Assembly (NCBI GenBank): GCA_030655015.1
Contig: JAURWJ010000030.1
Location: 1 to 32,879 of the forward strand
Reading direction: 5' to 3'
DNA length: 32,879 nucleotides
From: Methylotenera sp.
Lineage (GTDB): Bacteria > Pseudomonadota > Gammaproteobacteria > Burkholderiales > Methylophilaceae
In this document: positions 9,852 through 32,879 of the stretch, in pieces
Numbering within the stretch: the first letter of the stretch is position 1
How the letters are laid out: the number at the start of each line of letters is the position of its first letter
Notes under the pieces: model-generated
The model's input: the letters and a program-made list of their open reading frames with translations, nothing else
Database searches by the model: none
Told to the model about the DNA's origin: nothing
Translations under genes and position numbers: made by a program

Positions 9852-12800
9852 ATGAATAAAATCTTTCGTTCAATATGGAACCACGCACGCCAAAGCTTTG
9901 TTGTGGTGGGTGAAACGGCTAAATCGCATACCAAAGCCAAGTCTAGCCGCGCAGCCATCATATTGTCGGCAGGCTCATTTTTATTGGTGAGTGCAACAGC
10001 ATTCGCCTCCGACCTCCCTACGGGCGGAGAAGTTGTAGGTGGCTCAGGCAGCATTGCTACCAATGGCAACACCATGACGATCAACCAATCTACCACAAAA
10101 TTGGCCATAGACTGGCAAAGCTTCAGCATCGGTCAGGGCAATACGGTTAATTTTGTTCAGCCTTCCGCCAGCAGCGTGGCGCTGAATCGCGTGCTGGGGG
10201 CTGATGTTTCTGTCATTCAAGGCGCACTCAACGCTAATGGCCAAGTATTTTTAATCAACCCCAACGGCGTGCTGTTTACGCCTACAGCACAAATTAACGT
10301 CGGCGGCATCGTCGCCTCTACGCTCAACATGAGCACCGCTGATTTTATGGCGGGCAATTACAAGTTTGAAGGCACCAGCAGTAACGCCATCATCAACCAA
10401 GGCAACATCACCGCCGTGGGCGATGGTAATGGCGGAGGCACCATTGCCTTAATCGCCGCCAAAATCACCAACACGGGCAGTCTAACGGCCAATAAAGGCA
10501 ATGTGTTACTCGGTGCTGGCAGCAAAGTCACGCTTGATCTCGGCGGCCCAGTCAAGCTGCAAGTCACCCAAGGGCAGATTGACGCCTTAATTGAATCCGG
10601 CGGCGCGATTAAAGCCGATGGTGGCACGATATTGCTCACGGCAAAAGCCGCAGGTGATTTAGCGATTAGCGTCATCAACCATACCGGCATTATCGAAGCA
10701 CAAACATTAAGTACTGGAGAAAAAGGCCAGATCACCCTGCTGGGCGAGGGCGAGCTGATTACCGTTAACGGCAAGCTTGACGCCTCCGCCCCCAATGGCG
10801 GGGTGGGCGGGCGCATTGTGGCTACGGGAAAGCGGGTGCTGATTGATAATGCCGCGCATTTGACGGCCAGCGGCAAAAACGGCGGCGGTGAGGTGCTGGT
10901 GGGCGGCAGTTGGCAGAACAGCGACTCCAGCGTGTATCAGGCCACCGGCACCATCGTCGCCCCCAATGCGAAGCTGGAAGCCAGCGCGATTGACAACGGC
11001 AATGGCGGCACCGTGGTGGCATGGTCGGATATTCACAACCCAGATTCCGTTACCCGTGCTTATGGGTCGTTTGAAGCCAAAGGTGGAGTGAATGGTGGTG
11101 ATGGCGGGAGAATCGAGACATCTGGTTATTACCTCGATGTAAATCAGATTCAACCCACTACGGATGCGCCAAAAGGAAATAAGGGTTTATGGTTGCTAGA
11201 TCCTGTTGGTATTACGATTTCAAATGCAGCCAATAATTTTCCCGGTTCCGAATGGAATGGGACTACATCCTTTTATAATACAAGCAATGATACTGTTATT
11301 AATACAAGTGACTTAGTTAACTGGGTTCAAGCTAATAATTTATTTGTTCAGACCACAGGCTATTTAACCGTTGCCAGTCCTATAAGCTATTCTAGTTCAA
11401 ACTATTTAATATTAATGGCTGCCGGTTCATTATCAGTCAATGCCAATATTACAAACAGCTCTAACGGATATATACGTCTTATTACCACAGAAGGTTACAG
11501 CGGTTCAATTAGCGGCTCAGGTAACATTTCAACTGGTGGGATATTCAAGGTGCAAGGTAGTTTAGGCAATACCACAGGCAGCTTGAGCGGCACAATAACT
11601 GCCTCTGAGATAGAGCTGATGTCTATCCAGTACACGTTTCAAAATAATACGGTAACGTTAAGCAATAATCTCATCACTTTTGCCGGTACTAATCCTGTTG
11701 CAATTATAAACACCGCTTCACAACTTAGCACCAAGACATTTAGCGGTAGTGGCTTAGTAAGGCTAAACACAAATGCCACCATAGGAGGACTTAGCAGTAT
11801 CTGGAAACTTGATACGAGTTTTTACACTGCGACAATATCAGGTTCTGGTGGAAGTGGTGTTAGTTCTATTGAAGGTAGTGGCGCAGTTGTTCTAACCACT
11901 TCGCAAAACTTTAATTATTGGGGTAGTTACTCTGGTAGTGTTACCGTTAATAGCGGTGGTTCAACATCATTGTCGGCTGAGACCTATACTCAGTCAATCA
12001 CAGTTAACTCGGGCGGAACCCTCGGTACTTCAGGTGCAGTAAATCTAAACGGTAGTTTGACTTTAAATGGTGGGACGCTGAATATTAATTCAGGCTCAAC
12101 TTTAACACTCAATAGATCTTCAAACTTGGCTATAAATAGTGCTGTGAATGGACAGGGTAACTTAAATCTTAATGCTTCAAGCGGAAATCCAGTCTATACA
12201 TTCAATGGAGATGGTTCACTTCAAGGAACTGTTACCATTGGTTCTGGTGCTATCGCAACCTTGAATCATGCTAATGCTTTTGGTAGTACAGGAGCGGTTA
12301 CGGTTAACTCAGGCGGTACACTTAATATTGGTAATGGTGTCACAACCAATGCAGGTAAAAGCATTTACCTAAACGGTACGGGTGTGGGCGGATTGGGTGC
12401 ACTTCGTGTCGATAGTGGTCTTGGAACTTTTGGTGGAAACATCACATTAGGTAGTGACACAACTATCGGGGCATCTAGCACCGGGTTAACACTGGGTGGA
12501 ACGGTAAACGGTGCTTATGCCCTCACAGCAAATAGCTCAGGAACAGTGACTTTTAATGGTGTAGTCGGTGGTTCATCACCTTTGACCTCTATCACGACTA
12601 ATTCTGGTGGTACTACCGTCATCAACAACAACATCAGTACCACGGGTGCTCAAAACTACGGTGACTATGTTTCTATAACAGGGGCAAGAACGCTGATTGC
12701 CGATAATGGACAATTCAACTTCACCGGTAGTGCATCATCTAACAACAATAATCTGATATTGCAAGGTGGATGGACTAATTTCTCATTGAGTGGGAATGTT

Positions 12801-15605
12801 GCGACAGGAAGTGGCTGGCTTCATCTTAAAAATCCTGGCACAACAGGGACACTTTCAAGTTCAGGATACTTAAGTGGTAGTGGACTCTTGACCCAAAATT
12901 TCGCTACAGTCAACCTGACCGGTGCCAATAACTTCGCCACGATTGCAGCGAACAACATCGGCACGGCATTCAACTACGTCGATGCGGATGCGCTGACCAT
13001 TGGTACGGTCAACAGTGTTTCTGGTTTGGCCTTGGGTAACGCAAAGATCAATGTCGCAACAACCTCAGGCGATTTAACTGTCGCAAACAATGTCACGACG
13101 ACCGATGCGACAACCACGGCCATCACCCTCACCGCTGGCAGAAGCATGGCGGCGGGAAATAATGCAGGCGGGGATATCAAGTTCAGCGGCACGCCAACCA
13201 TCAGTGCCGGCGCTAACGGCATCGTTCGGCTGTTTTCAGGCAAAGTCGATAACGTTACCTTCCCGACAGACGGTGCTTACCAGATAAAATACGGCGCTAA
13301 TGAAAGCACGACATTCGCCCCGGCGCTGGAAGCTGGAAAGAAATACATTATCTATCGCGAAATTCCGTACAACTTTGGCACAGCCATCTTGAAAGTGGAT
13401 ACCGACGGCAACGTTGAATTGGTGTCATCAGGTGGAGCCTATGCCAACCAGACCTATGGAGATGTGCTGATTCTGAGCGCCACCATTTCGACGGGCGCAT
13501 CGGGCGAGTTGCTCAATGGCTCAAGTGAAGTGGTTTGGTATCTGGGCAACGATCCATTGCTCACCAATGCAAATGCAAATGCTAAGCTAAATTTGAGTGC
13601 TTGCGCTGGCTTGACCAGTTGCACCCTTGAATACACCCTGGATGCGAGCACTCTGAATGCCGGCACCTACAGCAACTTGAAATATGTTTTCAGCGTGTCG
13701 AATACAGGTGCAACCTACGATAGCCTGACGCTTGACCCAAAGGCCTTGACGCTGAATAACTTCACAGCGGTCAACAAGGTTTACGATGGAAATGTCACAG
13801 CAGGATTCAGCGCTGACATTGTTGGGCGAGTGGGTGACGATACGTTGAATTTGACGGCTACTTTCGCCGATAAGAATGTCGGAGCCAGCAAGACGGTCAC
13901 TGCGGCAATTTCCAATGGCAATTACACCCTTTCGCCGACCACAGCGTTAGCAGATATCAATCGCCTGAATTCTGTCGCCTGGACTGGTGGCACTACCGGC
14001 AACTGGTTTGACCCAGCCAACTGGGCAGCTGGTGCTGTGCCTGACGTGGCCAATGTGGCCAACGTGGTGATTCCTGATGGCGTGAACGTGAGCTTTGACA
14101 GTGCAGGCACAGTGGTTGCACCTGCACAAACCGGCGCCGTCAGTGTGGATAGCATTTCCATGCCGAATGGTGAAACTTCGGCCGCACTCAGCTTGGTCGG
14201 AGGCCAGTTGAATGTTGCCAGCAGCCTCAATCTTGGCAGCTTCATCCAGAGTGGCGGTGCACTCGTCAATAACGGCATCTTCGAGGTGGCTAGTTTTAGT
14301 CAGTCCGCTGGTACTTTTAATGGGTCAGGCTCACTGACCGTCAGCAATAGCTTTAGCCAAACCAGTGATGGGCTACTTTCTCCGCTTGGAGCTGTCAACA
14401 TCACGCAAGCCTCGGGCTCCTTGACCTGGATGAATATCAGCACTGGCGGAGACCTGACCTTATCCAGTCTTGCCAATGCAATTGCTTTCGGTGCTACCAC
14501 AGTGGGTGGGGACTTGTCAGCCAGTACTCATGCAGGAGTGACACAAACCCAAGCCATCTCTGTGACTGGTACCAGTACCTTTATTGCAGACGCTGAAGCC
14601 AACCAGGATGCGATTCTAAACCACACCAGTAACGATTTTGGCGGTGCTGTCTCGTTTAGTGGTTTGAATGCAGGAGGGTGGCGGAACATCAGCCTGGCCG
14701 ACGCCAACGGCATCGAACTGGGCAACGTCACTGCCACAGGCACGCTGGGCGTGAGCGCAGAAGACGACATCAGTCAAACCAGCAGCAGCGTTATCGCTAC
14801 CACTGGCGCAACAACCTTGACTTCAATCAACGGCAATATCGTGCTAGACGGGCTAAATAATACATTTACGGGTCCAGTGAGTGCGACAGGTGTCGATATC
14901 ACTCTTGTTGCTGTTAATGCACTTGATGTGACCTTAACTGCTACGGGCAATAGCATGCTAACAGCAGGTGGAGATCTTAAGATTAGTGGTGAAACCAATA
15001 ATTTGAGTACAATCACTACGAATGGCGGAAATACTACATTTGGCGCAACGACGATTGCTGGAAATCTAGATGTCATCAGTGCTGGCACAGTCACGCAAAC
15101 AGGTGCATTAGGTATTACTGGGACAGCTACATTAGAATCACCTTCTAAAATAGATCTGTCTAATCCAAGCAATACATTTGGCGGCACAATTAAGGCAGAT
15201 TCCCCTAACAGTACGTTGGCGGGTGCTGGCGCTCCTTCTGTTGGTCCGTTAGTTGGGGCAATTTCAGGTGCGCAACAAATTGCATTATTACCTAACTGGT
15301 CACCTTTATTGACGATCTTTACTTCTGACAGCTCTGATGTAAACTTGGCTAGTCTAGCCGCTACTCGGCCATCTATCAGTGTTACTGGCTTTAAAGTCGT
15401 TGAAGTGGATCTTGAAAATATTGACAGAAACGCTGATGGAACGGCTAGGAGTGATGAGGTTGACCGTGCTGTAGGTGCCTTAATCAGAACAGCGATGAAT
15501 GACAAAACAGTCGGATCACCAGTGTTTCTTGTGCTAGATAAAGGCATTAAAATGCCAGAAGACGACGATGATGATAATGTCCGCAGAAAAGTTAACAGTA
15601 AATAA
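9852..15605 (+). CDS. TpsA: large haemagglutinin-like exoprotein of a two-partner secretion system
   Basis: A 1917-residue secreted protein. Residues 1-30 are an extended signal peptide (ESPR, MNKIFRSIWNHARQSFVVV), then a hydrophobic core with cleavage near AFA52. The TPS secretion domain covers about 53-300, with the diagnostic NPNGVLF at 136-142. The rest is beta-helix-like: Gly/Ser/Thr/Asn repeats with recurring VNSGGT (about 690-840), a YDG-type module with VYDG around 1311, a WTGGTTGNWFDPANW turn near 1377, and 60-75-residue repeats between 1540 and 1790. Near the C-terminus lies an EF-hand-like loop (Asp1858-Glu1869) and an acidic DDDDD run; no Cys pair or membrane anchor. The protein should be exported by Sec and moved through TpsB to the surface as an adhesin. 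First gene of the tpsA-PPIase-tpsB set. GC content varies sharply along the gene. Confidence 0.93.
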   Translation: MNKIFRSIWNHARQSFVVVGETAKSHTKAKSSRAAIILSAGSFLLVSATAFASDLPTGGEVVGGSGSIATNGNTMTINQSTTKLAIDWQSFSIGQGNTVNFVQPSASSVALNRVLGADVSVIQGALNANGQVFLINPNGVLFTPTAQINVGGIVASTLNMSTADFMAGNYKFEGTSSNAIINQGNITAVGDGNGGGTIALIAAKITNTGSLTANKGNVLLGAGSKVTLDLGGPVKLQVTQGQIDALIESGGAIKADGGTILLTAKAAGDLAISVINHTGIIEAQTLSTGEKGQITLLGEGELITVNGKLDASAPNGGVGGRIVATGKRVLIDNAAHLTASGKNGGGEVLVGGSWQNSDSSVYQATGTIVAPNAKLEASAIDNGNGGTVVAWSDIHNPDSVTRAYGSFEAKGGVNGGDGGRIETSGYYLDVNQIQPTTDAPKGNKGLWLLDPVGITISNAANNFPGSEWNGTTSFYNTSNDTVINTSDLVNWVQANNLFVQTTGYLTVASPISYSSSNYLILMAAGSLSVNANITNSSNGYIRLITTEGYSGSISGSGNISTGGIFKVQGSLGNTTGSLSGTITASEIELMSIQYTFQNNTVTLSNNLITFAGTNPVAIINTASQLSTKTFSGSGLVRLNTNATIGGLSSIWKLDTSFYTATISGSGGSGVSSIEGSGAVVLTTSQNFNYWGSYSGSVTVNSGGSTSLSAETYTQSITVNSGGTLGTSGAVNLNGSLTLNGGTLNINSGSTLTLNRSSNLAINSAVNGQGNLNLNASSGNPVYTFNGDGSLQGTVTIGSGAIATLNHANAFGSTGAVTVNSGGTLNIGNGVTTNAGKSIYLNGTGVGGLGALRVDSGLGTFGGNITLGSDTTIGASSTGLTLGGTVNGAYALTANSSGTVTFNGVVGGSSPLTSITTNSGGTTVINNNISTTGAQNYGDYVSITGARTLIADNGQFNFTGSASSNNNNLILQGGWTNFSLSGNVATGSGWLHLKNPGTTGTLSSSGYLSGSGLLTQNFATVNLTGANNFATIAANNIGTAFNYVDADALTIGTVNSVSGLALGNAKINVATTSGDLTVANNVTTTDATTTAITLTAGRSMAAGNNAGGDIKFSGTPTISAGANGIVRLFSGKVDNVTFPTDGAYQIKYGANESTTFAPALEAGKKYIIYREIPYNFGTAILKVDTDGNVELVSSGGAYANQTYGDVLILSATISTGASGELLNGSSEVVWYLGNDPLLTNANANAKLNLSACAGLTSCTLEYTLDASTLNAGTYSNLKYVFSVSNTGATYDSLTLDPKALTLNNFTAVNKVYDGNVTAGFSADIVGRVGDDTLNLTATFADKNVGASKTVTAAISNGNYTLSPTTALADINRLNSVAWTGGTTGNWFDPANWAAGAVPDVANVANVVIPDGVNVSFDSAGTVVAPAQTGAVSVDSISMPNGETSAALSLVGGQLNVASSLNLGSFIQSGGALVNNGIFEVASFSQSAGTFNGSGSLTVSNSFSQTSDGLLSPLGAVNITQASGSLTWMNISTGGDLTLSSLANAIAFGATTVGGDLSASTHAGVTQTQAISVTGTSTFIADAEANQDAILNHTSNDFGGAVSFSGLNAGGWRNISLADANGIELGNVTATGTLGVSAEDDISQTSSSVIATTGATTLTSINGNIVLDGLNNTFTGPVSATGVDITLVAVNALDVTLTATGNSMLTAGGDLKISGETNNLSTITTNGGNTTFGATTIAGNLDVISAGTVTQTGALGITGTATLESPSKIDLSNPSNTFGGTIKADSPNSTLAGAGAPSVGPLVGAISGAQQIALLPNWSPLLTIFTSDSSDVNLASLAATRPSISVTGFKVVEVDLENIDRNADGTARSDEVDRAVGALIRTAMNDKTVGSPVFLVLDKGIKMPEDDDDDNVRRKVNSK

Positions 15606-15640
15606 CTCAGGTTAGCCAAGACAAGTTAACTTGTAAGCTT

Positions 15641-15701
15641 AACCCGGATGTTTCATAAATTGCTACGCGATGATCGCGCGAATTTATGAAACATCCGGGT
15701 T
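15641..15701. repeat. Perfect 21-bp inverted repeat after tpsA
   Basis: Bases 15641-15661 (start AACCCGGATGTTTCATA) are exactly reversed at 15681-15701 around a 19-base loop that itself contains CGCGAT-G-ATCGCG, so the whole element can fold into one long hairpin. It lies between tpsA and the PPIase gene with no U-tract behind it. A separate perfect 14-base palindrome, ACAAGTTAACTTGT, lies just before it at 15621-15634. It may be a REP/MITE-type repeat, an attenuator that lowers expression of the downstream genes, or a processing/stability site. Confidence 0.9.
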
Positions 15702-15748
15702 GAAGTAAGTTCAATAGAGGTTATTAAATAGGAGTAGTCATCAATCGT

Positions 15749-16561
15749 ATGAAACACAACACTTTAAACCAAGTAGCAGCCGTTTTATTATGCATGGTGA
15801 CTACCAATGTCCTCGCTGCGGAAGATGATGTTAAAACACAATTAGCTAAACCTTACGTTACGGTGAATGGTGTTGCTCAGCCTAGCGCTCGTGCTGAAAT
15901 CATGTTGCGCGAGCAATTAGGACGTGGTGTTTCAGATAGTAAGGAGTTGCGTGATGGTGTGCGTGACTTGCTAATCAACCAATCACTAATGGAACAAGAG
16001 GCACGTAAAGCTGGCCTTGATAAAGCCCCCTTGGTACAGGCACAAATCGACTTGGCGCAACAAAATATCTTAGCGCAAACCTGGCAACAAAAAGTGCTGA
16101 GTGAAGTCACTATTATGGATGATGAAATCAAAGCGGAATATGATAAGCAGATTGCCCGCTTAGGTGATAAAGAATATCTCATTCGTCATTTATTGGTTGC
16201 AGATGAGTCTATCGCTAAACTCCTTATTGAAAAGCTACAATCAGGTAGCAAAATGGCTGACCTTGCCAAAGACTACTCACGGGATGCTACCACCAAAGAC
16301 AAAGGTGGATTAACGGACTGGACGAGCATGGTGAACTTTTTACCGCCCATCGCAGATGTGTTGCCTAAGTTAACGAAAGGTAAATTTACGCAGCAAGCGG
16401 TTCAATCCAACCTGGGCTGGCACATCTTGCAATTAGAAGACACACGCCCATTCAAAGCGCCAGCGCTCGAAACACTCAAACCACAGCTTACGCAGATTAT
16501 TGCAAGACGTATGCTGGAAGCACGTCTTTTAAAACTCAAAAACGCGGCTAAGATACAATAG
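15749..16561 (+). CDS. Periplasmic parvulin-type peptidyl-prolyl isomerase (PpiC/SurA-like)
   Basis: A 270-residue protein with a signal peptide (cleavage near VLAA, residues 20-24), an N-terminal chaperone-like helical part (about 30-135; REQLGRGVSDSKELRDGVRD) and one parvulin domain at about 140-235 (YLIRHLLV, KDKGGLTDW, LGWHILQLEDTRPF), then a helical C-terminal tail. It should act in the periplasm on Xaa-Pro bonds and as a holdase. Its position between tpsA and tpsB recalls Par27 of Bordetella, a parvulin that binds filamentous haemagglutinin; helping TpsA cross the periplasm is therefore the likely job (inference from position and precedent). A Shine-Dalgarno-like AGGAG lies at 15730-15734, 14 bases before the ATG, which is long spacing. 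Confidence 0.9.
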   Translation: MKHNTLNQVAAVLLCMVTTNVLAAEDDVKTQLAKPYVTVNGVAQPSARAEIMLREQLGRGVSDSKELRDGVRDLLINQSLMEQEARKAGLDKAPLVQAQIDLAQQNILAQTWQQKVLSEVTIMDDEIKAEYDKQIARLGDKEYLIRHLLVADESIAKLLIEKLQSGSKMADLAKDYSRDATTKDKGGLTDWTSMVNFLPPIADVLPKLTKGKFTQQAVQSNLGWHILQLEDTRPFKAPALETLKPQLTQIIARRMLEARLLKLKNAAKIQ

Positions 16562-16590
16562 CGCACTTAACTGTTAGCACAATTGATTAT

Positions 16591-18264
16591 ATGACACACT
16601 TTAAACAACACCGATTATCTTTTGTACTCATGTCTGCGGGTTTGATTACGTCAAGTTTTGCCTTCGCAGCAAATCCTCCCGATGCGGGCCAAACATTGCA
16701 AGAGGTGGCACCAACACTAGAAGCACCGCGTGTTTCTCCTGAAATTAACATAGAAGCGCCGGCGCTGACGGAAGTTTTACCCGGCGGCGCCAGCGTTACA
16801 TTGCAATCGATTACCATTAAAGGCAATACACTTTTTAACGAAAGTGTATTGAAGGCGGTGCTTGGTGACGTGGTCGGTAAAACTTATGATATGGCTGGTC
16901 TTAAAAGTATCGCTAATCAAATCACTAGTTACTACCGCAATAACGGTTATCCATTTGCACATGCTTATATCCCTGCACAGCCAATCAATGAAGGTGCGCT
17001 ACGGATTGAAATCCTTGAAGGCCAGTATGGGCAAGTACAAGCCGTAGGAGATGACACGATCATCTCACAAGCTGGTAAGTTTCTGTCAGCACTGGTTTCT
17101 GGCAAAGTTATTCAAAGCAAGTCATTAGAACGTGCGGCATTGATCGTGGATGATCTACCCGGTATTCGTGCAGTACCCATTATTCGCCCTGGCCAAGAAG
17201 TAGGAACAGGCGATTTGGATGTGCAAATTGAACGAGATGGTCGCTTTGGTGGCGATGTTGGGCTAGATAACCATGGTAATAGATTTACTGGTCGAAGCCG
17301 CGCTAAAGTGAATCTTAATGCCGACAGCCCATTCATGATGGGAGATCGAATTACCATTAACAGCCTCTACTCTGAAGAAGATATGTGGCAAGGCTCACTG
17401 GGGTATAGTTTGCCGCTAGGCGGAAGTGGTCTGCGCGGTAATGCTAGGTATTCACATTCTTACTACGAGCTTGCTAAAGATTACGCTAACTTACAAGCGC
17501 ACGGTACCGCTAAGGTAACTAGCTTGGGCTTGAGCTATCCTCTTGTTCGTTCGCAAAAAGCAAATCTCACACTAGCCGCAACCTATCAGCACAAAAAACT
17601 GAACGATCAACAGGATGTGGCCAGTACCAGTAAAAATAAATTTAGCAATAGTCTTCCAGTTACTATGAGCTTCGATCTGCGTGACGGTTTAGCAGGGGGT
17701 GGTGTTACTTATGGCAATGTCAGTTGGACGCATGGCGTTCTTAATTTAGATAAGGAGCTGAACGCCATCGATCGACTCACCGCAAAAACAAACGGTGATT
17801 TTGATAAGCTCAACATCGATATTGCACGACAACAAGCATTACCCGCAAACTTCACGCTATATAGTCGGGTTTCAGCACAGTTGACCACAGACAACTTGGA
17901 CTCATCAGAAGACTTTGGTTTAGGCGGCGCGAATGGCGTGCGTGCCTACCCGAGCGGTGAAGGTTATGGTGATGAGGGTTGGTTGGCTCAGGTTGAACTA
18001 CGTTACAGCGCGACGTTAGCCAATGCAGTGACGCTAAGTCCTTACGCTTTTTATGACAGCGGCAGTGTTCGCATTAACCACAAGACTTGGGATAAAGCTG
18101 AGAACACACGTAGTGTTACTGGTACTGGGTTGGGTTTGCGTGCCTATTACAAAGATTTTAACGCAGATGCGAGCTTTGCTTGGCGCGCCTATGGCGGAGT
18201 CCCTCAATCTGATACGAAGCAATATCAACCGATAGTATGGGTGAATGCAGGGTACAAGTTTTAA
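16591..18264 (+). CDS. TpsB: two-partner secretion outer-membrane transporter (ShlB/FhaC/HecB family)
   Basis: A 557-residue Omp85-superfamily transporter of usual TpsB length. Signal peptide cut near FAFA (residue 26-27); a short Pro-rich linker that may act as plug helix; two POTRA domains at about 65-210 (first begins VTLQSITIKGNTLFNESVL, with YYRNNGYPFAHAYIPAQ); 16-strand barrel from about 215 to the C-terminal Phe (WVNAGYKF). The loop-6 motif appears as VRAYPSGEGYGDEGW, with Arg451 of the VRGY-type signature kept and Ala replacing the usual Gly. It recognises the TPS domain of TpsA and moves it across the outer membrane. It lies 29 bases after the PPIase gene, so one transcript is likely. 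Confidence 0.94.
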   Translation: MTHFKQHRLSFVLMSAGLITSSFAFAANPPDAGQTLQEVAPTLEAPRVSPEINIEAPALTEVLPGGASVTLQSITIKGNTLFNESVLKAVLGDVVGKTYDMAGLKSIANQITSYYRNNGYPFAHAYIPAQPINEGALRIEILEGQYGQVQAVGDDTIISQAGKFLSALVSGKVIQSKSLERAALIVDDLPGIRAVPIIRPGQEVGTGDLDVQIERDGRFGGDVGLDNHGNRFTGRSRAKVNLNADSPFMMGDRITINSLYSEEDMWQGSLGYSLPLGGSGLRGNARYSHSYYELAKDYANLQAHGTAKVTSLGLSYPLVRSQKANLTLAATYQHKKLNDQQDVASTSKNKFSNSLPVTMSFDLRDGLAGGGVTYGNVSWTHGVLNLDKELNAIDRLTAKTNGDFDKLNIDIARQQALPANFTLYSRVSAQLTTDNLDSSEDFGLGGANGVRAYPSGEGYGDEGWLAQVELRYSATLANAVTLSPYAFYDSGSVRINHKTWDKAENTRSVTGTGLGLRAYYKDFNADASFAWRAYGGVPQSDTKQYQPIVWVNAGYKF

Positions 18265-18574: not shown

Positions 18575-19345
18575 TTAACGGCTAAACACGCTTAACAAAC
18601 GCCGCATCAACAGCATAGGCAGACGTAGCACAAAGCCGCAAAACAGCCGTGTGTACATCCAGGTGAGCAGGGTGTTATCGCGCAGGTAACGAAAGTGCGA
18701 AACACCGCCTTCATCGATGCTGAAATAACGCACTGGTGCGGGCAGGTTTATCACTTTTACCCCACGCCAGCTCAATCTTATCGCAGCTTCTGGATCAAAA
18801 TCGAAATGACGCATCCAGGGCTGGTAGCGCATGACTTTTCTTAACGGGTCGATGGGGTAAACACGAAAACCAAACAGTGAGTCACCGATGCCTGCCCATA
18901 AGGTTTCCAAATTGGCCCACCAGTTGGATATTTTTCGTCCCTGCACACGCAGGTTTGGCGCGCTGGCATCAAAGATTGGCATGCCTAGCACCATGGCGTC
19001 TGGCTGCCTGATAGATTCGGTCATAAAGGCGGGTATCAGCTCCGGCGGATGCTGCCCGTCTGAATCCATGGTCAGTGCGTGTGTGTAGCCCTCTGCGGCG
19101 GCCAGGTTCAATCCATGCAATACCGCAGCGCCTTTGCCTTTGTTGCGTGGCAAATAGATTACGCGCAGACCTGAATCTTCTGCTGCCATGGCTTGTAAAG
19201 CTACTTCGGAGCCATCTGTACTACCATCAATCACCACCCATATCGGATTCCAGTACAAACGGGCTGCGCGTACGGTGTCATACACTTTAGGCCCCGGATT
19301 GTAGCTGGGGATGAGTACGATATGGCTGGTAGAGGCAGTGATCAT
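18575..19345 (-). CDS. Family 2 glycosyltransferase
   Basis: A 256-residue GT-A fold enzyme of the dolichol-phosphate-mannose-synthase-like GT2 group. VLIPSYNPG opens the nucleotide-binding fold, VIDGSTDGS and NKGKGAA follow, and the metal-binding DxD is MDSDGQHPP near residue 93-101. The last 40 residues (LLTWMYTRLFCGFVLRLPMLLMRRLL) are amphipathic to hydrophobic, suggesting membrane association. It is the last gene of the - strand operon with the chorismatase and acyltransferase; its ATG overlaps the acyltransferase stop (ATGA). In aryl polyene and xanthomonadin loci, GT2 enzymes occur beside acyltransferases and are thought to attach the polyene to a membrane carrier or lipid; the sugar donor cannot be read from sequence. 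Confidence 0.88.
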   Translation of the reverse strand: MITASTSHIVLIPSYNPGPKVYDTVRAARLYWNPIWVVIDGSTDGSEVALQAMAAEDSGLRVIYLPRNKGKGAAVLHGLNLAAAEGYTHALTMDSDGQHPPELIPAFMTESIRQPDAMVLGMPIFDASAPNLRVQGRKISNWWANLETLWAGIGDSLFGFRVYPIDPLRKVMRYQPWMRHFDFDPEAAIRLSWRGVKVINLPAPVRYFSIDEGGVSHFRYLRDNTLLTWMYTRLFCGFVLRLPMLLMRRLLSVFSR

Positions 19346-20199
19346 AACAAAGGCGTTCCGTGTGCGCTAAAACCGTGTAGGGCTTCATTTTGCGTAGTCA
19401 TTGGAAACAATAAGCCTTGAGTAGGGGCTGGCTGCGATGATGAAGGGTTTAGCGCTAGGGAAAAATAGTCTTCCAGTTCTGCCATGAAGCGGTGAGCATT
19501 TTCTGGCGGGTCGAAGCGCTTTCCCAATGTGATCTTGTAACGGACAGGCATGACAGGTTTGCGGAATAATGACCAGCCTTTACTTAGGTAAGGTGAATTG
19601 GTTTCAATCAATACGGTCTGTACTGGTACTTGCGCTTGCATGGAAATCAGGGCGATGCTGCCTTTGAGGGCGTTGATAGGCTGGTGCGTAGTGCGGGTAC
19701 CTTCAGGAAATAACAGCAGGTGGCTATTAGCTTTAAAGTCTTCACTCGCTTGCATTACCATCTGCCGTATTGGTTCATTGCGGATATAACGCGCCAGACG
19801 TGCGCCAGCCCCCAGAAAAATGTTGTTCATTAACGCTGACTTCATCACGCAGGCCACGTTAGGCAAACGCGAGATAATCATGACCGCATCCAGCAGGCAC
19901 GGGTGATTAGGCGCAATGATGAGCGATGTTTCGCCCCGTAATGTATCCAGCTCAGTTAAATCAAAACTGCAGCGGCGTGACATACTTAAACTGGCAAGAT
20001 AGGCGCGAAACAAAGCCATGATGACGTAGCGACCCCAGCGCATGGCGTAGTGCTTGGGTAATAATGGGAAAAGTGGGGCAGCTACTAGCGTCCAGCCTAG
20101 GGTGAGAAGACCCAGCCATAGCAATCCAAGGTATAACACAAGATAATCATATACCCCGAGTAATAATTCCCTGACAGATTGCAGCCTCATTCTGGTCAT
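19342..20199 (-). CDS. PlsC-like 1-acyl-glycerol-phosphate acyltransferase family protein
   Basis: A 285-residue membrane acyltransferase. A hydrophobic N-terminal stretch (about 10-45; YLVLYLGLLWLGLLTLGWTL) anchors it in the inner membrane. The catalytic HX4D motif is NHPCLLD near residues 98-104, and the glycerolipid-binding block is FPEGTRT near 165-171. Start and stop both overlap neighbours by ATGA (20196-20199 and 19342-19345), so it is translationally coupled with the chorismatase and the glycosyltransferase. Housekeeping plsC is possible, but the operon points to transfer of an aryl polyene acyl chain onto a lipid or sugar-lipid acceptor. No catalytic residue appears to be missing. 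Confidence 0.88.
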   Translation of the reverse strand: MTRMRLQSVRELLLGVYDYLVLYLGLLWLGLLTLGWTLVAAPLFPLLPKHYAMRWGRYVIMALFRAYLASLSMSRRCSFDLTELDTLRGETSLIIAPNHPCLLDAVMIISRLPNVACVMKSALMNNIFLGAGARLARYIRNEPIRQMVMQASEDFKANSHLLLFPEGTRTTHQPINALKGSIALISMQAQVPVQTVLIETNSPYLSKGWSLFRKPVMPVRYKITLGKRFDPPENAHRFMAELEDYFSLALNPSSSQPAPTQGLLFPMTTQNEALHGFSAHGTPLL

Positions 20200-21251
20200 A
20201 AACGTTCTGATAGGTGCCAGGCGGTTGCTTCAATTTCCAGCAGCAGCTCACGGCGGCATATATCAGCCTGCACAAAAACAGCTTTTATTGTACCGCCAAT
20301 GTGGCGTTGTATTTCATTGCGTACCAGTGATAAATCTGTTGCATGGCGGATATAGACCTTAAAAAAAATATGCTGCAAATCAAATGTCTGCTCACCAAGC
20401 GTACGATTAGCCTCGGCAATCACCGCATCCAGATTCGCCAGCGTTTCCTTGGTTTGCGCGACTACGTCTGATGCATGCAGCGACTGATGCCCAACAATGC
20501 TGGCCGTGCCTGATATGAATAAGAGGTCATCTTGTTCCGCACGCAATAAAGTCGCGCGGGAAAAATTTGGCGTGCGTGGACCATACGCTTCCGGATATTC
20601 GTATGCACTTACCTGACGTGGGTTTTCAATAGCGATTGGTGCTTTACGTCCAAGCAGAAAGGCGATGGTAAGTGGTCCGTCGGCTAGGCCCAACGCGCAG
20701 GCGGCCGGCAACTGGTCGCTAGCCTCGCGGCCACAGGCTAGAAAAGCATCCTTGCGACCCACATTAAACTGACGGTAGCGCTCCAGCTCATGGCTGATGC
20801 CGTTGATGTCAGCCATGTAATTCCAGAACCGATAAGCATGGGGGTAATCCAACGCATCCATTAGTGCAAATATCTGACGATAAGCAGATTCCGTAGTCTG
20901 TTGTAATGGTGCCGTAACTGCCCTAGCTTGTGGGAGCGCTGATTCTGGCAAGCTAAGGACGCCAAACAGAAATTCATCGCTATAACGATATTGAATTGCA
21001 CCGTGATGACCATGCCCTAACGGTTTGTCTGATGACAAAGCTGTATGACTCAACCATATCTCGCAGGCCACATCTGCGCCATCCAGAATAGGTGCATGTA
21101 TTTGAATCATCGGGATTTCAGTATTGCTGTCTGTTGAAGATTCAACAAAGCATACGGCGCCCAGAATACATTTTTGCTGTAGCTGCGACCGCTTAAAAAT
21201 ACCAGAAAATGGCATGTACGCGGGTTGTATATCTAATATCGGTAAGCTCAT
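20196..21251 (-). CDS. XanB2-type chorismatase (FkbO/Hyg5 family)
   Basis: A 351-residue protein of the chorismatase family, which has a YjgF/RidA-like trimer fold and splits chorismate to hydroxybenzoate (or dihydroxycyclohexadienoate) and pyruvate. Family signatures: RFWNYMADIN, RYRQFNVGRKDAF, NPRQVSAYEYPEAYGPRTP, LFISGTASIVGHQSLH and the C-terminal ICRRELLLEIEATA that holds the conserved active-site Glu. In Xanthomonas XanB2 makes 3- and 4-hydroxybenzoate, used for xanthomonadin starter units and ubiquinone. First gene of the - strand operon, so the likely role is to supply the aromatic head group to the ketosynthase set at 519-3755. Which product (3-HBA or 4-HBA) it makes cannot be told without structure-guided alignment. 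Confidence 0.87.
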   Translation of the reverse strand: MSLPILDIQPAYMPFSGIFKRSQLQQKCILGAVCFVESSTDSNTEIPMIQIHAPILDGADVACEIWLSHTALSSDKPLGHGHHGAIQYRYSDEFLFGVLSLPESALPQARAVTAPLQQTTESAYRQIFALMDALDYPHAYRFWNYMADINGISHELERYRQFNVGRKDAFLACGREASDQLPAACALGLADGPLTIAFLLGRKAPIAIENPRQVSAYEYPEAYGPRTPNFSRATLLRAEQDDLLFISGTASIVGHQSLHASDVVAQTKETLANLDAVIAEANRTLGEQTFDLQHIFFKVYIRHATDLSLVRNEIQRHIGGTIKAVFVQADICRRELLLEIEATAWHLSERL

Positions 21252-28167: not shown

Positions 28168-30366
<2,199 letters not shown>

Positions 30367-30500: not shown

Positions 30501-30932
30501 TTAGCTACTTAATTGAATAAGTTGCAATGTCAGCTGATCCAGTTCGGCGGGCGGCAGGGCGCCGCTGACGCGCCCTAACTCCTTGCCCTGCCAGAAATAA
30601 ACCAAGGTAGGAATTGATCTAATATTATATTTTGCACCCAACATTTGCTCGGCTTCAGTATCCACTTTGGCATAAACAACTTTATCAGCAAATTTTGCTG
30701 CGCTTGCTCTAAATGTTGGCGCAAACATCTTGCATGGCCCGCACCACGGTGCCCAGAAATCAATCAGTACCGGCAATAGTTTTTGTGCCAGAAGCTCATC
30801 GATATTTGCCTGATTAAGTACCAGTGGCGCAGAGATCAACCCCTGATGACAGACACCGCATTTAGGCGCTGCGCCCAACTTATCAATAGGAAAGCGATTT
30901 TCTTTATTGCAGTGCGGGCATTTAATCTGCAT
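30501..30932 (-). CDS. trxC: Thioredoxin 2 (TrxC)
   Basis: A 143-residue protein with the N-terminal zinc-binding region that separates TrxC from TrxA: Cys5-x2-Cys8 and Cys25-x2-Cys28. The thioredoxin domain follows, with active site WCGPC (Cys64, Cys67) in FWAPWCGPCKMFAPTF and the cis-proline in RSIPTLVYF. It reduces protein disulfides in the cytoplasm with thioredoxin reductase and is OxyR-controlled in Escherichia coli. Its ATG overlaps the stop of the preceding small gene (TAATG), so translation is coupled. It faces katG end to end, forming a peroxide/thiol stress neighbourhood. Confidence 0.95.
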   Translation of the reverse strand: MQIKCPHCNKENRFPIDKLGAAPKCGVCHQGLISAPLVLNQANIDELLAQKLLPVLIDFWAPWCGPCKMFAPTFRASAAKFADKVVYAKVDTEAEQMLGAKYNIRSIPTLVYFWQGKELGRVSGALPPAELDQLTLQLIQLSS

Positions 30933-31060: not shown

Positions 31061-31171
31061 TTCGTTCTCCTTAGTTGTTAACATTCCAGAAATTGTTAGC
31101 ATTTCAAAGATTAAATCTAATACGATATTGAGTAAGATGTTTTGGTTGATGCCAAAATATCTTTCAACAGC

Positions 31172-31921
31172 TTAACCCATCTGATCCCGCCGCTTATACT
31201 TTACACCATTCTCTATATTTATATCGCAGCAATCAAGCATGATTGAGTCGGCAATCACCCAAAGCACATCCAGCTTGAACTGCAATATTTCAAGCGCCCT
31301 TTCCTGCATAGCGCGTGATTGGCTAAAGTAATCCAAGGTCACTGCCAAACCTTGCTCAACATCACGCCGCGCTTCTATTAGTCTTTTCTTGAAATAAGTC
31401 AGACCTTCTTCTTTTACCCATGGATACATTTCAGGCCAGGAACTAATCCTTTGCTGATGGATATGCGGTGCGAACAGCTCGGTTAAAGAAGAGCAAACAG
31501 CTTCTTGCCAAGGCCTTTGGCGTGCAAAATTGATATACGCATCTACGGCAAACTTAACGCCCGCGCTGACATGCTTCAGTGAAGTGATATCCTCTGCGCT
31601 CAACCCGACTGCTTCCCCAAGCTTAATCCAGGCCTCGATACCGCCCTGAGTATTATCAACACCATCATGGTCGGTAATTCGTAAGATCCAGCCGCGACGA
31701 ATCTCCCGATCTGGGCAATTAGACATAATTGCAGCATCTTTTTGCGGTATGCTGATTTGATAATAAAAGCGGTTAGCTACCCACGATTGCAGTTGCTCAC
31801 GGCTTAGCTTGCCCTCATACATCATGATGTTAAAAGGGTGATGGATGTGATATCCCTTGCCTTTTTCACGCAGCTTGCTTTCAAACTCTTCACGAGACCA
31901 CGGTTGGGTAGCTTCACTCAT
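31172..31921 (-). CDS. pqqC: Pyrroloquinoline-quinone synthase PqqC
   Basis: A 249-residue all-helical oxidase that performs the last step of PQQ synthesis (ring closure and eight-electron oxidation with oxygen). The ATG at 31921 is preferred over an in-frame TTG at 31933: it has GGATAAAAG in front and fits the family length (about 250). Residues that bind PQQ or oxygen in the Klebsiella enzyme seem all present with a shift of one or two: Tyr24/His25 ([10 protein letters not shown]), Arg51, Tyr53/Tyr54 ([16 protein letters not shown]), His85 (ITDHDG), Glu148, His155 and Arg158 ([13 protein letters not shown]), Tyr176, Arg180, Lys216. PQQ serves methanol and alcohol dehydrogenases. No pqqA, B, D or E lies in the window, which is unusual, as pqqC normally sits inside pqqABCDE. 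A sigma-54 promoter match precedes it. Confidence 0.95.
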
Positions 31922-31979
31922 TCTTTTATCCAATTCGTTTATACAATCAGCCCGCTAAAGGCTGCTTAACTTTTCATTT

Positions 31980-32036
31980 ACATAAGTACCTATCACTTAC
32001 ATAAGTACTTATCACTTACATAAGTACTTATGCAAT
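31980..32036. repeat. Three tandem 19-bp repeats carrying a palindromic 12-mer
   Basis: Units at 31980-31998, 31999-32017 and 32018-32036. The middle unit is ACATAAGTACTTATCACTT; the first has one change in its palindrome (ATAAGTACCTAT) and the third diverges after ATAAGTACTTAT. The 12-mer ATAAGTACTTAT is a perfect dyad, so the array looks like three operator sites head to tail, within the pqqC leader and overlapping the -12 element of the proposed promoter. Confidence 0.9.
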
Positions 32037-32046
32037 TTGCATACCA
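32031..32046 (-). promoter_or_regulatory. pqqC: Sigma-54 (-24/-12) promoter match facing pqqC
   Basis: On the - strand the sequence TGGTATGCAAATTGCA fits the RpoN consensus TGGYAYG-N4-TTGCW at every defined position, with the invariant GG (32045-32044) and GC (32033-32032) separated by ten bases. Transcription would start near 32020, leaving a leader of about 100 bases to the pqqC ATG. The adjacent upstream gene encodes a sigma-54 activator, which strengthens the call. The site sits in a locally palindromic stretch (TTTGCAT-ACC-ATGCAAA), so coincidence is not excluded. Confidence 0.7.
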
Positions 32047-32096
32047 TGCAAACTAGTGATTTCCTGTATATTTAAATTGGCCGATTTGGAAGTCGC

Positions 32097-32879
32097 TTAG
32101 TCCTGAAGTTTTCGATACAGGGTACGCTCGCTAATACCAAGCATTTTAGCCAGCATGCGACGGTCACCGTGGCAGTTTGCATCTGCCCATTGCAAGTATT
32201 GTCGCTCAGCGTCTTCTAATGGGATGATTGCCGGGGGGTAAACATGCGTTAGCTGATGTGGGGTATCATCCTCGGTAGTTAAATCTTCTGCCATGACCGT
32301 ATCACCGTCTGTCATTAAGCTGGCACGTTCCAGTATATTTCTAAGCTCACGAATATTCCCCGGATAATTGCAGCCTTGAAGCTTTGCAATCACGTCTGGA
32401 TGCAGCTTTAGCTTTCTTTTGGGACTGATGCGTGCCAGCAAGGTTGCCGCCAATAATGGAACATCTTCACGACGTTCTGCCAATGCAGGCACATGGATAG
32501 GAAATGTGCTGATTCGATAATATAAGTCCTTACGGAAGGTCTCTTGCTCCACCATTTTTTTGAGATCGCGATGCGTCGCTGCCACGAGTCTAAAATTAGC
32601 CCGCAACGGCTCTACACCACCGACTCGGCGATAAGTTCCGGTTTCAAGCAGGCGCAATAATTTCACTTGCAGGTTAAGGGGAATATCCCCGACTTCATCA
32701 AGAAACAACGTACCGCCACTAGCACTTTCTACAAGCCCCTGCTTGCGCTGCGTCGCCCCGGTAAATGCGCCTTTTTCATAACCAAACAGCTCACTTTCGA
32801 ATAACGACTCTGTCAGCCCAGAACAGTCCACAACTACGTAAGGCTTATTAGCTCGCTGGCTGGCATTATGTATCGCCTG
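32097..32879 (-). CDS. Sigma-54-dependent transcriptional activator (NtrC family), N-terminus missing
   Basis: The frame is open to the window edge, so only the last 260 residues are seen. They begin inside the AAA+ domain after Walker [36 protein letters not shown] with an intact GAFTGA loop that contacts sigma-54, Walker [12 protein letters not shown], the RRVGG and [11 protein letters not shown] sensor segments, and the R-finger stretch [10 protein letters not shown] linker then leads to a Fis-type helix-turn-helix ending [20 protein letters not shown]. The sensory domain lies outside, so its signal is unknown. It ends 51 bases before the -24 element of the pqqC promoter match and is on the same strand, making pqqC its most obvious target. 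Confidence 0.95.

Follow-up and report, generated by a model that had tools for sequence, protein, structure and literature searches.

A second pqqC gene in a Methylotenera genome, apparently of different descent from the copy in that genome's own pqqABCDE operon, seems on balance to head a sigma-54-dependent operon that would be opened by a neighbouring FisR-like activator in response to a sulfur or redox signal, boosting the synthesis of PQQ. The locus is a concrete candidate for the sigma-54 control of a PQQ gene. The window, a stretch of 32,879 nucleotides in which it lies, makes up contig C134; the host genome, G000, was assembled from a metagenome and comprises 156 contigs (2.34 Mb in total, 85% complete, 5.6% contamination). 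Its relatives place the host in Methylophilaceae, with Methylotenera as the probable genus, since genomes of the same genus group with loci named Methylotenera in the tree described below. The features of the locus are listed in Table 1. The activator gene and pqqC are on the same strand and are separated by 175 nt, while the stop codon of duf3149 and the start codon of trxC overlap by one base. Judging from the sequence, pqqC is probably the first gene of a co-transcribed operon, pqqC-duf3149-trxC.

Table 1. Features of the extra pqqC locus, in coordinates of the window
Feature	Position	Strand	Basis and remarks
FisR-like sigma-54 activator gene, 3' part	32097..32879	-	Pfam Sigma54_activat and HTH_8; 5' part past the contig end
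Predicted sigma-54 -24/-12 element, TGGTATGCAAATTGCA	32031..32046	-	0 mismatches; kept in G145 (L121) and G136 (L149); predicted start near 32020
Three 19-bp tandem copies with palindrome ATAAGTAC(T/C)TAT, presumed 5' leader	31969..32031	-	
Extra pqqC, 249 aa, intact PqqC	31172..31921	-	TIGR02111, active-site residues, dN/dS
Hairpin without T-run, directly 3' of the pqqC stop	31126..31169	-	z -3.4
duf3149, small protein, 42 aa	30932..31060	-	PF11346, 1.2e-12
trxC, thioredoxin 2 type	30501..30932	-	NF008229 TrxC, 138.2 bits against a cut-off of 125

Does the extra gene encode a genuine PqqC? An earlier note on this DNA had described an intact pqqC starting at ATG 31921, and this is borne out: the protein scores 323.8 bits against TIGR02111 (equivalog cut-off 240), and its best matches among solved structures are pyrroloquinoline-quinone synthases. 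It keeps Y24, H25, R51, Y54, Q55, K61, R81, H85, Y129, H155, R158, Y176, and R180, judged against what we take to be the active-site positions of Klebsiella PqqC, and K214 of the solved PqqC chain aligns with its K216. The gene is a genuine and complete member of the PqqC family, and its product is predicted to convert AHQQ to PQQ. The extra PqqC proteins of two relatives are 94% (G145) and 84% (G148) identical to the window copy. Between the window and G145 copies, dN/dS is 0.08-0.12, compared with about 0.015-0.017 among native operon copies, which are under tighter constraint; dS was not computable for pairs that include the extra copy of G148. These ratios suggest that the extra pqqC is under purifying selection, which is weaker than that acting on the native copy.

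The earlier note had taken this pqqC for the separated last step of the pathway. This does not hold, as the gene is a second copy; a complete pqqABCDE set is present on another contig of the host genome (C141, with PqqA recognized by motif), and the stand-alone reading was rejected. PqqC was found in 173 of the 187 Methylophilaceae genomes searched. Two strong copies are present in each of three genomes (G000, G145, and G148), and three more (G027, G071, and G182) have two matches each with weak best scores. We compared 135 pqqC loci, several of them from one and the same genome, which included 27 further top loci and 80 named loci among the matches listed; pqqB, pqqD, or pqqE was present in the fetched stretch at every locus but those of the three extra copies. 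Thus, the classical Methylophilaceae operons encode the same family of PqqC (about 70-85% identity) and have other pqq genes nearby in the loci compared, whereas the extra pqqC is without them.

Has the extra copy arisen by duplication of the native gene? We built a tree from 72 rows that had been hand-picked among these loci. The extra copies of the three genomes group together in it as a single clade (100/95), away from the copies in the native operons of those genomes. One-clade tests, for which both groups were named after the tree had been seen, gave p 0.071 for recent duplication of the native copy, which is above 0.05, and p 0.042 for descent with the main-type Methylotenera copies. Recent duplication is disfavoured by the tree, although a p of 0.071 gives no formal rejection, and the extra pqqC would appear to be of different descent from the pqqABCDE copy. 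A binning artefact was also considered and is unlikely, as both pqqC copies recur in G145 and in G148 (99% complete).

A full match to the sigma-54 consensus TGGYAYG-N4-TTGCW had been claimed upstream of pqqC. The match is real: TGGTATGCAAATTGCA contains GG-N10-GC within the consensus and is the sole exact match in the window. How much weight should the string carry? By shuffling, the mean number of chance matches per window is 0.13 (12 of 100 shuffles had at least one), and a Markov model gives 0.096; genome-wide, there are six exact matches as against two for a reversed control pattern. From these figures, the string alone is not shown to be above chance. Within the 175-nt gap and in the given orientation, only 0.00016-0.00021 matches are expected. 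The position of the element is more telling than the string itself, and conservation is a better test.

Behind the activator gene of two relatives, the element is found as TGGTATGCGAATTGCA (G145) and TGGCATGCTAATTGCA (G136). In an alignment of these two related genomes with the host, all nine fixed positions of the consensus are identical, compared with 29 of 43 (upstream) and 29 of 70 (downstream) ungapped columns in the flanks; the two variable columns within the 16 bases are positions that the consensus leaves free. The conservation of GG-N10-GC in relatives, which the earlier note had singled out as a check, therefore extends to G145 and G136 but not to G148, which has an extra pqqC and yet no -24/-12 element before it or before the gene that intervenes there. 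At the level of the order, an element with at most one mismatch is present at 22 of 30 activator loci, and rpoN was found in all four genomes searched (G000, G145, G148, and G136). The proposal that the adjacent activator controls pqqC through sigma-54 is thus well supported as a prediction.

Alternatively, pqqC might be reached by read-through transcription of the activator gene, or have an unrecognized housekeeping promoter, the -24/-12 match being due to chance. The short gap between two genes on the same strand would allow this, the six genome-wide matches are close to chance level, and G148 has the gene without the element. However, neither the position of the element nor its conservation in three genomes is readily explained in this way, and a crude scan of the minus strand of the gap detected no sigma-70-like site; we consider this explanation improbable.

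The 19-bp tandem repeats sit directly downstream of the element. They were considered as part of a wider operator, which was rejected because ATAAGTACYTAT has no other copies in the host genome. Tandem 19-bp copies were not found at the corresponding locus of G145 or G136.

Which genes does the predicted sigma-54 promoter serve? The order pqqC, duf3149, trxC is identical in G145, where a hairpin of different sequence (z -3.7, also without a T-run) occupies the same place behind pqqC. In G148, a CoA-disulfide-reductase/rhodanese-type gene lies between the activator and the extra pqqC, and trxC follows directly without duf3149. In G136, the activator, promoter, duf3149, and trxC are kept but pqqC has been lost; between the promoter and duf3149 there is a remnant (L149 5420-5620), of which about 40-55 nt can be aligned to the start region of pqqC. 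Since G136 retains the promoter together with duf3149 and trxC, the promoter is best read as that of the operon, with pqqC as an optional and dispensable first gene. The activator of G144 is accompanied by ccoG, and neither pqqC nor trxC is directly behind it.

These comparisons bear on the idea that the promoter serves duf3149-trxC in thiol repair, and that the extra pqqC was captured as a passenger, with little regulatory meaning. The state of G136 is what this idea would predict. In a synteny check, the pairing of activator and pqqC was seen solely in G000, G145, and G148; at the 30 order-level loci fetched, no pqqC lies within about 1.5 kb of the activator. Among 51 other activator-bearing genomes of the order, eight have pqqC: in four of these, an activator shares its contig, at about 46 kb in the nearest case, and in the other four the two are on different contigs. 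On the other hand, a mere passenger would hardly be expected to retain the active-site residues, to show a low dN/dS, and to stay beside trxC or duf3149-trxC in three genomes. We regard the passenger idea as rather unlikely.

The surroundings of the operon include katG (28183-30366) in the window. Ferritin/Dps-like and CCP/MauG-like genes are also nearby in G145 (L121 1504-6970), giving an oxidative-stress neighbourhood.

The activator was said to have an intact GAFTGA loop. This was confirmed, with the addition that the gene is cut by the contig end: the remaining fragment of 260 aa has the loop and the AAA+ and Fis-type HTH features, and is without Walker A and the sensor domain. The missing 5' part was not found elsewhere in the host genome. 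The fragment is 90% identical to a full-length homologue in G145, and the full-length activators of G145 and G148 comprise PAS, AAA+, and Fis-type HTH domains. The motif C-x10-C-x6-C is present in all nine full-length homologues aligned and at all 30 order-level loci, and it lies in the PAS domain, a part that the window fragment does not reach; it is absent from the five other activators of the host genome. Matches to the activator at E 1e-120 or better were found in 8 of 187 Methylophilaceae genomes and in at least 52 of 399 order-level genomes, the host included, the latter count being a lower bound with up to four candidates scored per genome.

What signal might such a protein sense? FisR of Cupriavidus pinatubonensis (Li et al. 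2017) reportedly has three cysteines and targets the pdo and sqr genes. The motif in the homologues has what we take to be the spacing of the Cupriavidus cysteines (11 and 7). The activator is likely to be FisR-like, with activation by sulfane sulfur or sulfide predicted. Of the nutritional or redox signal proposed in the earlier note, the redox part is plausible, and sulfane sulfur or sulfide-linked respiratory stress is the likely signal. As is reported of FisR in Cupriavidus and Acinetobacter baumannii, a sigma-54 activator with a regulatory domain, an AAA+ domain, and a DNA-binding domain stands beside redox or sulfur genes. In A. baumannii, sulfide induces FisR targets and CydAB, and FisR is responsive to sulfide even though it is without the Cupriavidus cysteines (PMC7315123), which the homologues of the window activator have. 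The cysteines therefore do not settle the signal.

The neighbours of the activator differ from those of described FisR proteins, whose targets are pdo and sqr. Here they are the pqqC-duf3149-trxC operon and, judging from relatives, ccoG; ccoG and trxC-operon genes are the neighbours in G145 and G136, and ccoG and the CoA-disulfide-reductase-type gene in G148. Among the neighbourhoods compared, SQR-like and PDO-like genes adjoin only the homologue of Cupriavidus metallidurans (55% identity; one locus), where the two genes, one persulfide-dioxygenase-like and the other SQR-like, score below their NCBIfam cut-offs. Other Methylophilaceae homologues (51-56%) are divergent to an SBP56/mtoX-type gene with SQR some 5-6 kb off (G060 and G074), or have an SBP56/mtoX-type gene about 7 kb away (G051). 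In 17 of the 30 order-level loci, the gene behind the element was read; nine were read as cydA (three of them checked with Pfam) and two as molybdopterin oxidoreductase (both checked). ccoG is present at 7 of the 30 loci, and annotated cyd genes adjoin the homologues of Pseudoalteromonas.

The cyd and ccoG neighbours raise the alternative that the activator senses low oxygen or the state of the respiratory chain instead of sulfane sulfur, and that pqqC is induced against a scarcity of O2. This sits less well with the SQR-like and PDO-like genes beside one homologue, with the mtoX-type and SQR genes around G060, G074, and G051, and with the cysteine spacing, and we would give it only a modest chance. 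Both this alternative and the passenger idea are compatible with the sigma-54 portion of the explanation favoured here; the likelihoods assigned to them are not mutually exclusive.

Where might the activator bind? In the four Methylotenera-type loci (G145, G148, G136, and G144), ccoG is divergent from the activator and carries a sigma-54-like element; the interval between the two genes contains two TGYCAN4TGRCA-like sites, one of them mismatched in G148 and one in G144; both patterns were drawn up after viewing the same stretches. The pair is likely to represent the binding sites of the activator. No conserved site of this kind was found near the pqqC promoter; the clear pair is located about 1.4 kb upstream in the relatives, and the contig of the host genome ends before this point. 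With one mismatch allowed, the pattern occurs four times in the window as against 5.9 expected, and is no commoner than chance. Sites with one or two mismatches inside the activator gene were considered as operators for pqqC and rejected, being not shared with G136. It may be conjectured that activation takes place across about 1.4 kb, or that weak sites within the activator gene are used.

The explanation we favour for the locus is that an additional pqqC was captured into a FisR-like, sulfane-sulfur- or redox-responsive sigma-54 operon. The operon pqqC-duf3149-trxC would be transcribed from the -24/-12 promoter, which lies some 100 nt ahead of pqqC and would be opened by the neighbouring activator upon reaction of its cysteines with sulfane sulfur or persulfide, or in some related redox state; the divergent ccoG would be switched on together with it. 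Under sulfide-rich, low-oxygen, or thiol-stress conditions, the extra PqqC could enhance the final, O2-dependent step of PQQ synthesis, and methanol oxidation would thereby be kept supplied with PQQ. In its most specific form, namely that a lineage of Methylotenera recruited a further PQQ synthase to a sigma-54 regulon of the FisR type, which senses sulfane sulfur, and boosts the last step on demand under sulfide or low-oxygen stress, the proposal is tentative and somewhat doubtful.

Is there a precedent for such an arrangement? A narrow literature search (pqqC with RpoN, and wider terms) returned no report of a sigma-54-controlled pqqC in the accessible parts of the sources. A paper on the Pseudomonas ped cluster lists the sigma-54-dependent regulator CbrB among the relevant proteins (PMC12997753). 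In Hyphomicrobium denitrificans, transcription of a second cluster, pqqA-E-D-puuD-serC-pyrD, falls upon the loss of sHdrR or SoxR, an effect for which the authors favour an indirect cause (PMC12423496). Both cases concern a methylotroph in which extra PQQ genes, present besides a complete pqqABCDE set, are tied (here by prediction) to regulators of the sulfane-sulfur type. By contrast, Hyphomicrobium has ArsR-type repressors and pqqA, D, and E, whereas the present locus has a sigma-54 activator and, of the pathway genes, just pqqC. If the proposal holds in its most specific form, PQQ supply would have been wired to reactive sulfur a second time, independently of Hyphomicrobium. The locus hints at a coupling of the supply of PQQ to sulfide or redox stress. 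With an extra pqqC under an activator of the reactive-sulfur type, methylotrophs would allow a direct test of whether sulfide stress, respiration, and methanol oxidation are linked.

The host genome also carries a second pqqA-pqqD-pqqE set on contig C154 (L010 6468-10583), followed by Urate_ox_N, aminotransferase V, and DHO_dh genes. This cluster resembles the Hyphomicrobium one, which has been described for a proposed O2-independent route to PQQ. The extra pqqC as a partner of the C154 set is unsupported: a single pqqE is present in G145 and in G148, and G110, which carries a second pqqE too, has one pqqC.

Elsewhere in the window, a row of genes at 18575-21251 encodes a glycosyltransferase (Pfam) and acyltransferase-like and chorismatase-like proteins, the last two below their NCBIfam cut-offs; the row may belong to a pathway for a pigment or an aryl lipid. 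At 9852-18264, a 1917-codon open reading frame precedes genes for a rotamase-type protein and a transporter of the ShlB/FhaC type, an arrangement like that of two-partner secretion.
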